Positions 5,179 through 26,940 of a stretch of 39,579 nucleotides of DNA are shown here, piece by piece. Source of the stretch: Candidatus Sungiibacteriota bacterium (GTDB taxonomy: Bacteria; Patescibacteriota; Minisyncoccia; Sungbacterales; HO2-52-23); the NCBI GenBank assembly GCA_016186095.1, contig JACPMG010000021.1:1-39579 (forward strand). Direction: 5' to 3'. Position numbers and translations under genes: made by a program. Numbering within the stretch: position 1 is the first letter of the stretch; every line of letters starts with the position of its first letter. The notes below the pieces were generated by a model. That model had not been told where the DNA came from. It ran no database searches and was given only the letters and a program-made list of their open reading frames with translations.

Positions 5179-5408
5179 AGGCCATAGTGGGATTTGCACC
5201 CACGAATAGCGGTTTTGTCCCGATGCCAAAATTTTGGAGGCCACGGGCGGAATCGAACCGCCGAATAGGAGTTTTGCAGACTCCTGCCTTAACCACTTGG
5301 CTACGTGGCCATACTCCAAAATTTTGGATCGGGATCCCGACTTCCTTATCTTATTTAATAATGGTGCGTCGGGACAGACCGCTGTGTTAGCTGCTTCACC
5401 ACAGCACC
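5179..5408 (-). pseudogene. Split, decayed tRNA-Cys enclosing an intact tRNA-Cys
   Basis: Minus strand. The 5' half (5408-5375) has a D-arm GTG...CAC and anticodon 5' strand GCGGTCTG. The 3' half (5217-5179) has CAAAACCGC, then CTATTCG and T-arm GTGGG...CCCAC. Joined, they give stem GCGGT/ACCGC with loop CTGCAAA, anticodon GCA, as in the inner gene. The 157-bp insert starts TCCCGA and ends TCGGGA. The copy is decayed: the T-loop is TGCAAAT and the acceptor strands GGTGCTG and TATGGCC have two mismatches plus two wobbles. Confidence 0.7.
5238..5310 (-). tRNA. tRNA-Cys (anticodon GCA)
   Basis: 73-nt cloverleaf: acceptor GGCCACG/CGTGGCC with discriminator T, as usual for Cys; anticodon stem GGAGT/ACTCC around loop CTGCAAA; T-arm GGCGG TTCGATT CCGCC. 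It is flanked on both sides by the palindrome CCAAAATTTTGGA (5226-5238 and 5316-5328) and lies inside the split tRNA-Cys remnant. Confidence 0.95.
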
Positions 5409-5771: not shown

Positions 5772-7322
5772 TTATTGGGGGATTCTCTTGGTCAATTCTT
5801 CTTCGTATACTTCCAATATGTCCCCTACCTGAACCGCCGTACCAGAATCAAACATGATCCCGCACTCCATTCCTTTGCTCACCTCCGCTGTTTTCACCTT
5901 TTCCCTTTGTAGTTCGACAATATCGCCGCTGCCTATAGTCTCTTTGGCGCGTTTTATATCTCCTTTTGCCCCCGTCTTTATAACGCCCTCTTCAACCCGT
6001 CCGCCAATAATCTGCCTATTCCCATCCTTTTTTCCGCCCGAGGCGGACCCGCCTTTGGCGGAAAATATCTTCAAAATCTTTATCCTGCCGAGTTCCGTTC
6101 TCCTGATCTCCGGCGGGATCATCTCCATCATTTTTTCTCGTACCCGATCAAGAACATCGTAGATTATCTCCCCGACGACTATGCGAATGTTTGAATTCTC
6201 GGCAAGTTCTTGCGCGGCAGGATCGGTGGCCACCTTAAATCCGACAATAGTAACGAGTTTCGTTGCCTGCGCCATTTTGACGTCGGATTCGTTGATGGCG
6301 CCCAGTCCGCTTTTGATAATATTGATGTCCACAGCCTCGTTTTTTAAATTCTGGAGAGATTCTTCCAGCGCCTCTTGGGATCCGCCGACATCGGCTTTTA
6401 GTATGACATTGAAAACCAGCTGTTCTCCGTCCGTCGCGGCCGAGACGATTTTTTTCTCGGCTGCCATTTCCGGTAAAGACGCCATAAATTCGTCCGCCTC
6501 TTTTTTACTTTCGAATGCGCGGAAGGCGTCTCCCACGGCGGGCATATGGCCGAGCCCGGCAATCAGCACTGGCGAGGATGGTTCCGCTTCTTTTATGGCC
6601 TGGCCGCGGAAATCTTCGAGGATCTTTATCGTATCAACCGATCTTCCAATTACTACCGCGTTTCCGCGCACGAGAGTTCCGTCACGGATAAGGAGGGTTG
6701 CGGTGGTGCCGCGTTGAGGATCGCGGTGCGCCTCAACCACGACTCCTTCCGCCGGCTTTTGAGGATTTGCCTGAAGATTTTCCAACTCCGCAACCAGAAG
6801 GAGCATTTCCAGGAGCGCGTCCATATTTACCCCAGCTTTGGCGCTTATTTCAACGGCCGGCACTTTTCCCCCATAAGATTCCACCAACACGTTTTCCTCG
6901 GCGAGCTGTTGTTTGACGCGCTCTGTATTCGCCTCCGGCTTGTCGATTTTATTTATGGCCACTACAAAGGGGAGATTGTTTTCGCGGATAATTTCAATAG
7001 TTTCTTTGGTCTGCGGTTTCATGCCCTCGTCTGCCGCAATGACCAGGACCGCTATATCCGCAACGCGCGCGCCGCGCGAGCGCATTTTGGAAAAAGCCTC
7101 ATGCCCCGGCGTGTCGATGAAGGTTATCTGTTTGCCTTTGTGTGTTATCTCATACGCGCCGATATGCTGGGTGATGCCGCCTGATTCCTCCTCCACGACT
7201 TTGGTCTTCCGATACCAGTCAAGAATTTTGGTTTTGCCGTGATCAATATGGCCCATCACTACTACGATGGGCGGACGTGTTTCTAGCTTTGTATTTTTCG
7301 TTTCTATCTTTGTACGTACCAT
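5772..7322 (-). CDS. infB: Translation initiation factor IF-2, short form
   Basis: 516-aa GTPase that brings initiator tRNA to the ribosome. Seen: G1 GHIDHGKT (near residue 26), switch I SGGITQHIGAY, G3 DTPGHEAF, G4 NKID, G5 SAKAG, then beta-barrel domain II, domain III and the C-terminal fMet-tRNA-binding domain. The usual N-terminal IF2-N region is missing; only about 20 residues precede the G domain. In domain IV the segment [13 protein letters not shown] (DNA 6031-6064) is a palindromic repeat inserted in frame, nearly identical to one in the sigma-factor gene. The ATG has no clear Shine-Dalgarno, and the leader (7323-7429) is AT-rich. Confidence 0.95.
   Translation of the reverse strand: MVRTKIETKNTKLETRPPIVVVMGHIDHGKTKILDWYRKTKVVEEESGGITQHIGAYEITHKGKQITFIDTPGHEAFSKMRSRGARVADIAVLVIAADEGMKPQTKETIEIIRENNLPFVVAINKIDKPEANTERVKQQLAEENVLVESYGGKVPAVEISAKAGVNMDALLEMLLLVAELENLQANPQKPAEGVVVEAHRDPQRGTTATLLIRDGTLVRGNAVVIGRSVDTIKILEDFRGQAIKEAEPSSPVLIAGLGHMPAVGDAFRAFESKKEADEFMASLPEMAAEKKIVSAATDGEQLVFNVILKADVGGSQEALEESLQNLKNEAVDINIIKSGLGAINESDVKMAQATKLVTIVGFKVATDPAAQELAENSNIRIVVGEIIYDVLDRVREKMMEMIPPEIRRTELGRIKILKIFSAKGGSASGGKKDGNRQIIGGRVEEGVIKTGAKGDIKRAKETIGSGDIVELQREKVKTAEVSKGMECGIMFDSGTAVQVGDILEVYEEELTKRIPQ
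6031..6064. repeat. In-frame palindromic element in infB
   Basis: TTTCCGCCCGAGGCGG followed by ACCCGCCTTTGGCGG. Each half is an inverted repeat (CCGCC...GGCGG). It nearly matches 29525-29558 in the sigma-factor gene, but is read on the opposite strand here. Confidence 0.8.
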
Positions 7323-10597: not shown

Positions 10598-10669
10598 TGG
10601 GCACTGGGGGGATCGAACCCTCGACCTACTGTGTGTAAAACAGTCGCTCTACCACTGAGCTAAGTGCCC
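10598..10669 (-). tRNA. tRNA-Val (anticodon TAC)
   Basis: 72-nt cloverleaf: acceptor GGGCACT/AGTGCCC, discriminator A, anticodon stem ACTGT/ACAGT with loop TTTACAC (TAC). CCA is not encoded. On its 5' side lies a structured repeat region beginning with a truncated tRNA 5' end. Confidence 0.95.
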
Positions 10670-10906
10670 TTGTATATCTAACGGGGTGAATAAACGAGTT
10701 GCTGTTTCGCCCCCTCGGCGAAACCCAGAGAAATTTTTTACGCTCACACGTGCTTCGCACGGCTCGCTAAATTTCTCGCGAGAGCAAAGAAATTTGCTCT
10801 CGCCCAAGCCGACGTATTCTCCGACGGTGCCGTCGGAGTCCCGGTCGGCTCCCCGACTGCTCAATTATAAATTTTATAACGTGCGTCGGGGCTGAGCTAA
10901 ACGCCC
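10670..10906 (-). repeat. Truncated tRNA 5' end plus structured repeats before tRNA-Val(TAC)
   Basis: Minus strand 10906-10892 reads GGGCGTTTAGCTCAG, like the tRNA-Val(TAC) 5' end (13 of 15), and stops in the D-loop. It is followed by CCCCGACGCAC (10891-10881), a hairpin closed by GTCGGGG, further hairpins such as GACTCCGACGGCACCGTCGGAG-type stems, and the 102-bp element at 10704-10805. The same AGCTCAG-CCCCGACGCAC junction occurs at 22990-23007. Confidence 0.75.
10704..10805 (+). repeat. 102-bp covarying structured element, copy 1
   Basis: Aligns without gaps to 11630-11731; I count 83 of 102 identical positions. It contains hairpin GTTTCGCC/GGCGAAAC, an outer pair GAGAAATTT/AAATTTCTC, and the stem GCGAGAGCAAA/TTTGCTCTCGC. 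In copy 2 that last stem is GCACGAGCAAA/TTTGCTCGTGC, so two base pairs changed on both arms together. Confidence 0.85.
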
Positions 10907-10972
10907 TTATTCATGCGCCCATGAAGGATCGAACTTCAGACCTTTCGCATGTCAAGCGAACGCTCTACTTCA

Positions 10973-11073
10973 CCCCGCCACTTGGGCATGTGGGCAATAC
11001 AGGGATCGAACCTGTGGCCTTCACAATGTCAATGTGACGCTCTACCACTGAGCTAATTGCCCAAGTGGCGGGG
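10973..11073. repeat. 16-bp perfect inverted repeats framing tRNA-Val(GAC)
   Basis: CCCCGCCACTTGGGCA at 10973-10988 and its exact reverse complement at 11058-11073; the second arm overlaps the first bases of the inner tRNA. Confidence 0.9.
10991..11062 (-). tRNA. tRNA-Val (anticodon GAC)
   Basis: 72-nt cloverleaf: acceptor GGGCAAT/ATTGCCC, discriminator A, D-arm GCTCAGTGGTAGAGC, anticodon stem TCACA/TGTGA with loop TTGACAT (GAC), T-arm ACAGG TTCGATC CCTGT. It lies in the D-loop of a second, degenerate tRNA-Val with the same anticodon. Confidence 0.95.
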
Positions 11074-11094
11074 CAAGCTGAGCTAACCGCGCTC

Positions 11095-11331
11095 TTAAAA
11101 TAAATGCTTTTTCAAAAATGCTCTACCGGATCCTGATTTCAGATATTTTTCGAAATTAAAAGCTGTATATTTATTTTTGAATGCAAAGTAGCAAATTAGT
11201 TCGACTGGCAGTCGGTCTTTTGCCGCGGGGACCCTCCCACTACTATGTCTTACTAGTCGCTCTTGGATATCCTCGGTACAGCCGGTATACGGCAGACCAT
11301 CAATACAATTCAACAAGTAAACATAATGCAT
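11095..11331 (-). CDS. GIY-YIG nuclease domain protein in the tRNA cluster, 78 aa
   Basis: Single-domain GIY-YIG protein: HYVYLL...PYTGCTED, the Arg in QERLVRH, the Glu in NFEKYLKSGSGRAFL. A GGAGAG Shine-Dalgarno precedes the ATG. On the same strand it lies between the 3' end of the split tRNA-Glu (11397) and the 5' end of the split tRNA-Val (11092); its TAA stop ends two bases from that tRNA start, so it is very likely co-transcribed with the tRNAs. The family includes homing endonucleases, but stand-alone proteins this small have no assigned role. Confidence 0.88.
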   Translation of the reverse strand: MHYVYLLNCIDGLPYTGCTEDIQERLVRHSSGRVPAAKDRLPVELICYFAFKNKYTAFNFEKYLKSGSGRAFLKKHLF

Positions 11332-11396: not shown

Positions 11397-11475
11397 CGGC
11401 CCCACCGGGAATCGAACCCGCCTTCGCAGGCCGACACCCGCTTCGGCGGACGAAGGCCCGACTTGCCACATCTTG

Positions 11476-11611
11476 CCCCTCACTTAACTTCGATCATGCT
11501 TCGCCCCCAATGGGATTCGAACCCATGTACCGGGCTTGAAAAGCCCGTGTCCTGGGCCTCTAGACGATAGGGGCAGTATTTTATCTCATTTTTTCGAAGT
11601 TAAGTGAGGGG
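11476..11611. repeat. 18-bp perfect inverted repeats framing tRNA-Glu
   Basis: CCCCTCACTTAACTTCGA at 11476-11493 and its exact reverse complement at 11594-11611. The CCCTCACTTAAC core resembles the inverted repeat at 23237-23339. Confidence 0.9.
11502..11574 (-). tRNA. tRNA-Glu (anticodon TTC)
   Basis: 73-nt cloverleaf: acceptor GCCCCTA/TGGGGGC, discriminator G, anticodon stem CGGGC/GCCCG with loop TTTTCAA (TTC), T-arm ATGGG TTCGAAT CCCAT. Confidence 0.95.
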
Positions 11612-11629
11612 TGAAAAAGCGTGGCGTCC

Positions 11630-11731
11630 GTTTCGCCTCCTCGGCGAAACCCGGGGAAATCCTTAACGTTCGCATCTGCTCCGCACGGCTCACTAGATTT
11701 CCCGCACGAGCAAAGCAATTTGCTCGTGCCC
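11630..11731 (+). repeat. 102-bp covarying structured element, copy 2
   Basis: Gap-free homologue of 10704-10805. It starts one base from the 5' piece of the split tRNA-Glu. Stem GCACGAGCAAA/TTTGCTCGTGC shows paired changes relative to copy 1. Confidence 0.85.
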
Positions 11732-11800
11732 GCTAGACGATGGGGCCAAAATAGCTGATTTGCTTTTATAAGTTTATCAGAAACACGGAAAATTTCAATT

Positions 11801-15331: not shown

Positions 15332-15491
15332 ATTTTGCGGGATTCGTATAGTGGGCGAAAACTGAAGGCTTTCGCGGGAAATTTAGCGAGCCGGGGAACC
15401 CGCGCGAGCGTCAAAAATTTCCCGGGGGAGCGCTGACGGGAGCGCGACTAGCGAGCTTCCCAAGCCCAGTAAGACAACTTTGACAATACTT
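15332..15491 (+). repeat. Truncated tRNA-Gly 5' end plus structured repeats before tRNA-Gly
   Basis: GCGGGATTCGTATAGTGG (15337-15354) is a tRNA-Gly-like 5' end stopping in the D-loop. It is followed by hairpin GCGAAAACTGAAGGCTTTCGC, then an inverted copy of the core of the 102-bp element (15376-15423; outer arms GGGAAATTT/AAATTTCCC), the hairpin GCGCT...AGCGC, and CTTCCCAAG, which mimics the Gly(CCC) anticodon loop. The intact tRNA-Gly follows. Confidence 0.7.
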
Positions 15492-22981: not shown

Positions 22982-23065
22982 GCCGGAGTAGCTCAGCCCC
23001 GACGCACTGCTGTATAATTTAAAAAGGTGAAGTCGGGGCTCCGACTAAACGTCGGAGCGGTAGAA

Positions 23066-23173
23066 CCTGCCCGCCATAGCCCGAGCCCCTTTAGTTCAGT
23101 GGCAGAACAGCGGTATCGTAAACCGCATACGTCAGTTCGATTCTGACAGGGGGCTAAGGCGATGGCAGGCGGG
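23066..23173. repeat. Inverted repeats framing tRNA-Thr
   Basis: CCTGCCCGCCATAGCC (23066-23081) and GGCGATGGCAGGCGGG (23158-23173) are complementary at 13 of 16 positions. Confidence 0.7.
23085..23155 (+). tRNA. tRNA-Thr (anticodon CGT)
   Basis: 71-nt cloverleaf: acceptor GCCCCTT/AGGGGGC, discriminator T, D-arm GTTC...GAAC, anticodon stem GCGGT/ACCGC with loop ATCGTAA (CGT), T-arm GTCAG TTCGATT CTGAC. Confidence 0.93.
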
Positions 23174-23236
23174 GCAACTCTTTCGTAAACATGTAAACAG
23201 TAGGTCGGTGGTTCAAATCCACTCTCCGGCTATTTC

Positions 23237-25588: not shown

Positions 25589-26497
25589 ATGTTAAAAATT
25601 ACACTGAAGCGCATTGTAAAATACGGCTATCTAAGTTTTCAGAGAAATGGTTGGCTTTCCACCGCCACGATTTTGGTGATGTCTTTGGCGCTTTTTGTTC
25701 TGGGAAATTTAATATTTTTGGGGGCGTTGGCTAATACCGTTCTTGTCGCGTTGGAGTCGAAGATAGACATGAGCGTCTATTTCATGCCGGATGCCGAAGA
25801 GCAGAATATTTTCGCGGTCAAAAAAGAAATCGAATCGCTCGCCGATGTCGCGGAGGTCTCTTATGTTTCCAAGAACGAGGCCTTGACGGATTTTCGAGCG
25901 CGACATAGCGCCAATGCCGTCATCGTCAGTGCCCTTGAGGAGCTTGATGGAAATCCTTTGGAGGCAAGCTTAAATATCAAGGCGCGCGACCCGTCCAATT
26001 ACGCGTCTATCAGTAATTTTCTTTTGGATAAAAATTATCCGGTCGTGGACAAGATAAATTATTTTGAGAATCAAAAAGTGATTGATCGCCTCGGCGCGGT
26101 GTTGGGGACGGTGCGCGGATCCGGAGTCCTACTCGCAGTTTTTCTGGCCTTCGTAGCTATACTGGTGGCCTTCAACACGGTGCGTCTGGCAATCTACACC
26201 ATGCGGGAGGAGATTGGGATCATGCGTCTGGTGGGTGCTGCGCAATGGTTTATACGCGGGCCGTTTTTGGTGAGCGGAGTAATATATGGAAGTATTGCCG
26301 CCGCGGCGGTTACCTTATTTTTTTTCCCGCTCGCTTGGTTTGCTTCACCCAGACTAACTTTGCTTGTGCCAAACTTTGATCTCTTTCAGTACTTTCTCTC
26401 AAACTTTTTTGAGTTTTTCCTTATAATGCTTTTTTCCGGCGTGGCCCTGGGCGTTGTTTCCAGCTTAATAGCCATCCGGAGGTATTTGAAAATATAA
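25589..26497 (+). CDS. ftsX: Cell division permease-like protein FtsX
   Basis: 302-aa membrane protein: cytoplasmic N-terminus, TM1 (about residues 22-48), a large extracellular loop (about 50-165), and three C-terminal membrane segments (about 175-200, 220-245 and 265-290). The motif TMREEIGIMRLVGA is typical for the FtsX/MacB permease fold. Partner of FtsE; the loop recruits peptidoglycan hydrolases or their adaptors. A terminator follows. Confidence 0.94.
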   Translation: MLKITLKRIVKYGYLSFQRNGWLSTATILVMSLALFVLGNLIFLGALANTVLVALESKIDMSVYFMPDAEEQNIFAVKKEIESLADVAEVSYVSKNEALTDFRARHSANAVIVSALEELDGNPLEASLNIKARDPSNYASISNFLLDKNYPVVDKINYFENQKVIDRLGAVLGTVRGSGVLLAVFLAFVAILVAFNTVRLAIYTMREEIGIMRLVGAAQWFIRGPFLVSGVIYGSIAAAAVTLFFFPLAWFASPRLTLLVPNFDLFQYFLSNFFEFFLIMLFSGVALGVVSSLIAIRRYLKI

Positions 26498-26667: not shown

Positions 26668-26940
26668 ATGTATTATGTCTATATTCTTCTTTGCGACCAG
26701 AAAACTTTTTATGTGGGAATGACGGATAATCTGGAAAGAAGATTATTGCAGCATCAAAGAAAAGAGTCCCCATATACCAAAAAGTTTTCTGAAGCTGTAG
26801 TTGTATACAAAGAGAATTTTACTAATTTTGTTAGTGCCGAAAATAGGGAACTGCAGCTGAAGAAATGGAGTATCGCAAAGAAGAAGGCTTTGATATCCGG
26901 TAATATAAATTTGTTACGTAGGTTAAGTAGGGGGTCCTGA
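26668..26940 (+). CDS. GIY-YIG nuclease domain protein, 90 aa
   Basis: Single-domain GIY-YIG protein: MYYVYILLCDQKTFYVGMTDN with Y-V-G as second motif, the Arg in LERRLLQH, the Glu in AENRELQLKKW. ATG 26668 is preferred over GTG 26656 because the family starts with M-Y-Y-V-Y. Its last codons and stop lie within the right inverted repeat of the unit. It lies between the intact tRNA-Gln and a shortened tRNA-Gln copy. Confidence 0.88.
   Translation: MYYVYILLCDQKTFYVGMTDNLERRLLQHQRKESPYTKKFSEAVVVYKENFTNFVSAENRELQLKKWSIAKKKALISGNINLLRRLSRGS

Follow-up and report, generated by a model that had tools for sequence, protein, structure and literature searches.

Why does a complete tRNA-Val(GAC) gene lie in the D-loop of another tRNA-Val(GAC) gene, and which of the two serves the cell? 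The arrangement is found on the minus strand of a 39,579-nucleotide stretch of DNA (the window) from a Candidatus Sungiibacteriota bacterium. It is proposed here, with a probability of about 0.6, that the locus is a tRNA-replacement cassette, in which the inner tRNA would be the working gene and the outer one an inactivated native gene.

Anatomy and predicted folding of the nested locus

The outer gene (11092-10914, minus strand) is split in its D-loop, directly after ...TAGCTCAG, by a 105-bp insert that is bounded by a perfect 16-bp inverted repeat and holds the complete inner gene. The parts of the locus are as follows.

11092-11078, minus: outer tRNA-Val(GAC) 5' half GCGCGGTTAGCTCAG (acceptor GCGCGGT, TA, D-stem GCTC, AG)
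11077-10973, minus: whole insert, CTTGCCCC...GGCGGGG, 105 bp
11058-11077, minus: left end of the insert, CTTG followed by the 16-nt left arm CCCCGCCACTTGGGCA; the CTTGCCCC end recurs in other loci
10991-11062, minus: inner intact tRNA-Val(GAC), found by Rfam and ARAGORN
10968-10988, minus: right arm TGCCCAAGTGGCGGGG followed by TGAAG, right end of the insert; GGGGTGAAGTAGAGC is conserved in other loci
10914-10972, minus: outer tRNA-Val(GAC) 3' half, from TGAAGTAGAGC (D-stem GAGC, anticodon arm GAC, T-arm, acceptor TGGGCGC, A73), whose first five nucleotides, TGAAG, are counted as insert end

An earlier note on this DNA had recognised one tRNA-Val(GAC) within the D-loop of another and a 105-bp insert ending in GGCGGGG with perfect 16-bp arms, and both are confirmed: the left (11073-11058) and right (10988-10973) arms are 100% complementary, and the inner copy is detected by Rfam with 75 bits (E 7.9e-15) and also called by ARAGORN. 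The outer gene yields only a 29.8-bit match, which both programs mis-parse as 10915-10988. Neither an endonuclease gene nor an integrase is found within the 105-bp insert.

The arms were also said to frame the inner tRNA. The inverted repeat is real, but five of its 16 bp belong to the inner tRNA itself, as the last five nucleotides of the left arm (GGGCA) double as the 5' strand of the inner acceptor, and repeat and acceptor therefore compete. In the predicted ensemble the arms pair with probabilities of 0.8-1.0 and the inner acceptor with a probability of 0.0, because the repeat takes the five acceptor bases and the unconstrained fold breaks the inner cloverleaf. Forcing this cloverleaf costs about 10 kcal/mol (-71.7 vs -81.9). 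The strand folds far better than its shuffles (z = -5.8) with its arms paired, but the inner cloverleaf is not favoured, and the long stem capped by it that had been envisaged does not form in the prediction. Co-transcriptional folding could let the inner cloverleaf form first.

The strong predicted stem speaks for a reading at the RNA level, whereby the insert is an intron that is spliced out, the exons are joined and both tRNAs are derived from one transcript, with the stem holding the outer halves. The earlier note had stated that excision restores the D-arm and that the outer tRNA could fold around the insert. Removal of the insert does restore the D-stem GCTC/GAGC, but no excision restores a D-loop with G18-G19, and the outer acceptor (GCGCGGT/TGGGCGC) is broken, with 4/7 pairs. 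If RNase P and RNase Z mature the inner tRNA, the outer one would be severed into two pieces. Furthermore, across this genome and 20 relatives RtcB (PF01139) exceeds the cut-off in 0/21 genomes and the tRNA splicing endonuclease tRNA_int_endo (PF01974) is found in 0/21, while RNA_ligase (PF09414) is sporadic (3/21) and not present in this genome. The same PF01974 and RtcB counts led to the rejection of an archaeal-type (BHB) tRNA intron.

Recurrence, synteny and the state of the outer genes

The insert ends CAG/CTTGCCCC...GGGGTGAAG/TAGAGC (slashes mark the insert boundaries) recur in the D-loops of Val, Ile, Thr, Ala, Phe, Met and Gly tRNA genes of Patescibacteria. The searches comprised a DNA search with the window locus, a scan of 384 genomes from the class with a 14-base pattern and one of 84,980 species genomes with a 19-base pattern. 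AGYTYAGCTTGCCC is present in 23 of the 384 genomes (26 places listed), while the reversed control gives three matches, and its recurrence is beyond chance. The insert end is found in tRNA D-loops of Nomura-, Sung-, Portnoy-, Zambryski-, Wolfe-, Terry-, Falkow- and Berkelbacteria and others, and a related insert type, ../CCCCG...CGGGGCAA(G)/.., occupies anticodon loops. Pattern matches outside Patescibacteria have no tRNA nearby, with the sole exception of L202 (Kiritimatiellia). Near 6480-6498 of this locus a Val 5' half with a D-loop hairpin is followed by a complete tRNA-Val(GAC), which could be due to transfer or mis-binning.

The host assembly (680 kb, 32 contigs, 92% complete) is of a kind in which an assembly artefact or chance might be suspected, and the earlier note had held that absence of the arrangement from close relatives would point to an artefact. 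This does not apply here: the syntenic gene is uninterrupted in relatives, yet the architecture is present in many independent genomes, including a triple nest in the single contig of G003 (L025/L058), and artefact or chance is refuted by this recurrence.

Sixteen distinct compact inserts of 96-125 bp could be parsed from loci selected for the left insert end together with a right arm that matched it, and the inner tRNA is intact in 16/16. Their arms are paired at 187/192 positions, a count that leans towards pairing because of this choice of loci. With changes on both sides and several pair types per position, the arm sequences indicate covariation. Outer and inner anticodons are identical in all 11 loci with a readable outer anticodon. 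The outer acceptor stem is perfect in 7/12 readable loci, which is compatible with recent insertion and also with a functional outer tRNA. Nesting can be repeated, as in a four-level nest of tRNA-Thr(TGT) in G217 (L052), where the second- and third-level acceptor stems read as intact, and in L056 (the same place as L027), where one D-loop and one anticodon-loop insert each carry a tRNA-Ile. Wherever a D-loop hairpin without a tRNA was seen (L197 aside), it adjoined or terminated a locus in which an intact tRNA has the same anticodon. A strict automated search for outer pairs retrieved 4/37 and 4/70 tRNAs against about 0.2% at random, counts that are lower bounds because decayed or multiply interrupted outer genes such as that of the window are missed. 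Within the open-licence literature no earlier account of one tRNA gene nested in another was found, an absence that is weak evidence.

On the minus strand the gene order of the window is Glu(TTC), a GIY-YIG ORF, Val(GAC), Val(TAC) and Ser(CGA). Relatives have the Glu-Val(GAC)-Val(TAC)-Ser locus without interruptions, and three members of the family (L040, L021 and L034) have a single uninterrupted Val(GAC) gene at the same syntenic position. The outer gene of the window shares 0.81-0.87 identity with these syntenic genes (0.80-0.86 over its 3' 50 nt) vs 0.71-0.78 for the inner gene. Inner and outer copies are 77% identical to each other, and the inner copy is 93% identical to a tRNA-Val(GAC) of another family (G017, L002), which is nested in an anticodon loop.

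These values bear on the possibility of a local duplication, in which a tandem tRNA-Val copy arose and an inversion or template switching made the palindrome with no mobile element involved. Outer and inner genes have identical 3' halves in L050 and L214, and in several loci the inverted repeat overlaps the inner tRNA by a few bases, which a fold-back copy would produce. Such an origin is nevertheless improbable, given that the same end sequences occur in many genera and isotypes and that the window's inner gene is closer to a tRNA that occupies a different site in a different family than to its own outer gene.

Across the loci the outer gene ranges from perfect to lost while the inner one is intact everywhere. 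The outer 3' half of a Thr(GGT) gene is kept in G012 (L060) and lost in G009 of the same genus (L061), both of which retain the inner tRNA; L043 and L048 have also lost an outer 3' half. The single-contig G003 has uninterrupted, intact tRNAs for each of the 20 amino acids, so that no interrupted gene is needed there. An intron at the RNA level would be in keeping with the covarying arms, the 7/12 intact outer acceptors and outer genes such as that of the window's tRNA-Glu, which keep their stems despite inserts in more than one loop. Set against these are the lost 3' halves, one of them in a sister genome, and the fact that no solitary intact tRNA interrupted by the hairpin only was seen; together with the broken acceptor, the incomplete D-loop and the missing splicing enzymes they render this intron unlikely. 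Of the earlier note, the account of the anatomy is correct and the functional reading is not supported, which leaves its interpretation as a whole partly supported.

Three further candidates were rejected. A dispersed palindromic element (RPE, REP or MITE) does not account for the D-loop hairpin, as CTTGCCCC..GGGGTGAAG occurs once in G000, in a tRNA; this D-element is rare per genome. A group I intron or other Rfam RNA was dismissed after both gathering and relaxed thresholds returned tRNA only, bar a sub-threshold chance match, and a phage carrier after no exact match was found in viral contigs.

GIY-YIG ORFs and the proposed replacement of tRNA genes

A candidate for the mobilising enzyme of such elements lies next to the locus.

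11095-11331, minus: GIY-YIG endonuclease ORF, 78 aa (Pfam PF01541, E 1.2e-10)

This ORF is situated between the nested Glu and Val(GAC) tRNAs, and 2 nt separate its stop codon from the outer Val gene. It is outside the insert and may be unrelated to it. Fuller cassettes that combine a tRNA with a GIY-YIG ORF are found at four loci, L226, L220, L214 and L224. L226 is composed of the outer Val 5' half, a D-arm hairpin, a complete Val(GAC), the GIY-YIG ORF, the D-arm hairpin once more and the outer 3' half, and its outer acceptor forms 7/7 pairs. The ORF begins at the 3' end of the tRNA and closes with LAQLAPPSSGGVK and a stop codon, a stretch that is the D-arm and hairpin read in frame. The other three loci are arranged like L226, and in all four the ORF tail, LAQLAPP.. 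(..GGVK in three), is encoded by the D-arm and hairpin. GIY-YIG ORFs neighbour tRNAs more often than expected by chance in this genome and G003, where 6/15 are no more than 200 bp away, against 3-4% for random windows (p about 1e-5); such an excess is also seen in a further small set.

The D-arm hairpin might instead be a site-specific recombination site (arms CTTGCCCCGCC / GGCGGGGTGAAG with a short spacer) at which a recombinase integrates the cassettes, with the GIY-YIG ORF as a passenger. Tyrosine-recombinase core sites have an arm-spacer-arm layout of this sort, and in L226 and L220 the D-arm and hairpin form direct repeats with identical 7-nt loops at the left and right ends. This is an unlikely solution, since the compact form has its tRNA inside the palindrome and not between two sites, and it leaves unexplained why the GIY-YIG tail is encoded in the hairpin.

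In the replacement reading, a small palindromic element with the ends CTTGCCCC...GGGGTGAAG would have entered the D-loop of the native tRNA-Val(GAC) and inactivated the gene, bringing with it a complete tRNA-Val(GAC) that now supplies the cell. The inner gene would be expressed and processed as an ordinary tRNA and the outer halves, non-functional in the window, would be relics, of which the upstream one may be retained owing to its position behind the promoter. The match in isotype could be understood if only those cassettes survive that supply the tRNA they destroy. The elements are likely to move, and it is presumed that the endonuclease cuts tRNA genes and that the cassette spreads by recombinational repair, as for SegB in T-even phages. 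Homing cassettes with a replacement tRNA are favoured because of the L226-type cassettes, the association of GIY-YIG ORFs with tRNAs and the parallel with SegB, and by analogy with the latter, cutting by GIY-YIG enzymes may drive the spread. Compact inserts such as that of the window are probably endonuclease-less forms of the fuller cassettes, moved in trans or worn down; the two could also be separate elements.

SegB is a free-standing GIY-YIG homing endonuclease that is encoded beside tRNA genes and cuts inside them (PMC13096335; PMC2988022), and the tRNA-segB unit duplicates via microhomology that the 5' end of the tRNA shares with the 3' end of segB (PMC13096335). The likeness consists in the GIY-YIG gene beside tRNA genes and in the unit of tRNA and endonuclease. 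The present elements differ in that they occur in bacterial genomes, insert inside the tRNA gene and carry a complete tRNA of the same anticodon, that the endonuclease tail is encoded by the D-arm hairpin and that compact forms have no endonuclease. Bacterial tRNA genes are also interrupted by group I introns, often with homing endonucleases (PMC3984707), whereas here there is no match to a group I core, the site is the D-loop and the insert of ~100 bp consists of arms and a tRNA. Archaeal tRNA introns and split tRNAs involve inserts that move between tRNA genes, as stated in PMC10714607, citing Fujishima 2010; the inserts described here, in contrast, hold a whole tRNA of the same anticodon, and neither tRNA_int_endo nor RtcB was found in the 21 genomes. 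A case within the same bacterial group is that of the CPR rRNA-gene insertion sequences, likewise homing-endonuclease inserts (predominantly LAGLIDADG) in structural RNA genes, for which the source deals with rRNA genes only and does not contain the term tRNA (PMC11270868).

Islands and phages that integrate into tRNA genes offer another comparison, as they make good the function of the tRNA gene that they disrupt. Such elements restore one end of the gene via an att site, whereas in the present case the two halves enclose an entire second tRNA and the insert has no integrase.

More tentatively, these loci may represent an undescribed class of Patescibacteria mobile elements that inactivate a host tRNA gene, take over with their own tRNA and do so in repeated nested rounds, such that a sizeable share of the tRNAs of some genomes would be element-borne. 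If so, essential tRNA genes would be open to invasion and replacement by selfish cassettes that carry a substitute, the single-domain GIY-YIG ORFs beside Patescibacteria tRNA genes would have a suggested role, and tRNA annotation in these genomes would mix working genes with interrupted relics. The nested loci offer a testable system for how elements escape the cost of breaking an essential gene.

Other nested tRNAs and repeats in the window and genome

Four more interrupted tRNA loci are present in the window.

11397-11747, minus: nested tRNA-Glu, outer acceptor GGCCCCA/TGGGGCC, interrupted in the D-loop and the anticodon loop, with a palindrome inserted close to the T-arm
11501-11575, minus: inner Glu(TTC), flanked by an 18-bp perfect inverted repeat
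10598-10906, minus: outer tRNA 5' half GGGCGTTTAGCTCAG with palindromic inserts, then an intact tRNA-Val(TAC) at 10598-10669
22982-23231, plus: nested tRNA-Thr(CGT), outer GCCGGAG/CTCCGGC with 7/7 pairs, inner at 23084-23156
5180-5408, minus: nested tRNA-Cys(GCA), outer gene interrupted in its anticodon loop, inner at 5235-5310

No outer 3' half was found at the Val(TAC) locus (10598-10906). Outside the window, Val(CAC), Thr(TGT) and Lys(CTT) are also nested in this genome.

A palindromic repeat, GGGCGAGAGC..GCGAGAAATTTAGCGAGCC.., is found at 10700-10830 (minus), 11630-11731 (minus) and 15368-15440 (plus) of the window. Copies of this structured repeat occupy D-loops of outer tRNAs or lie upstream of Gly(CCC), and it is also present outside tRNAs (G000 C26:11718-11817) and in relatives; the copies at 10700-10830 and 11630-11731 have no Rfam match. 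A further insert, CCCCGACGCAC..GTCGGGG, with a TATAAT-like centre, is located upstream of the inner tRNA in the outer Thr, Val(TAC) and Cys genes (22997-23057, 10880-10891 and 5363-5374, respectively) and could supply a promoter.

GIY-YIG ORFs also follow tRNA-Gln(CTG) and tRNA-Asn at a distance of 27-36 bp (window 26668-26940, plus; G000 C32:46799-46999), and another at 45-284 of the window has no tRNA near. At about 25,600-26,000 of G000 C17 (minus) an HNH-like ORF lies between a tRNA-Tyr and a T-arm with acceptor 3' end (CCTGCCCA), which is possibly an HNH version of the cassette. Finally, G003 contains an array of about 21 tRNA genes (G003:C1:439820-442718), possibly of phage origin.
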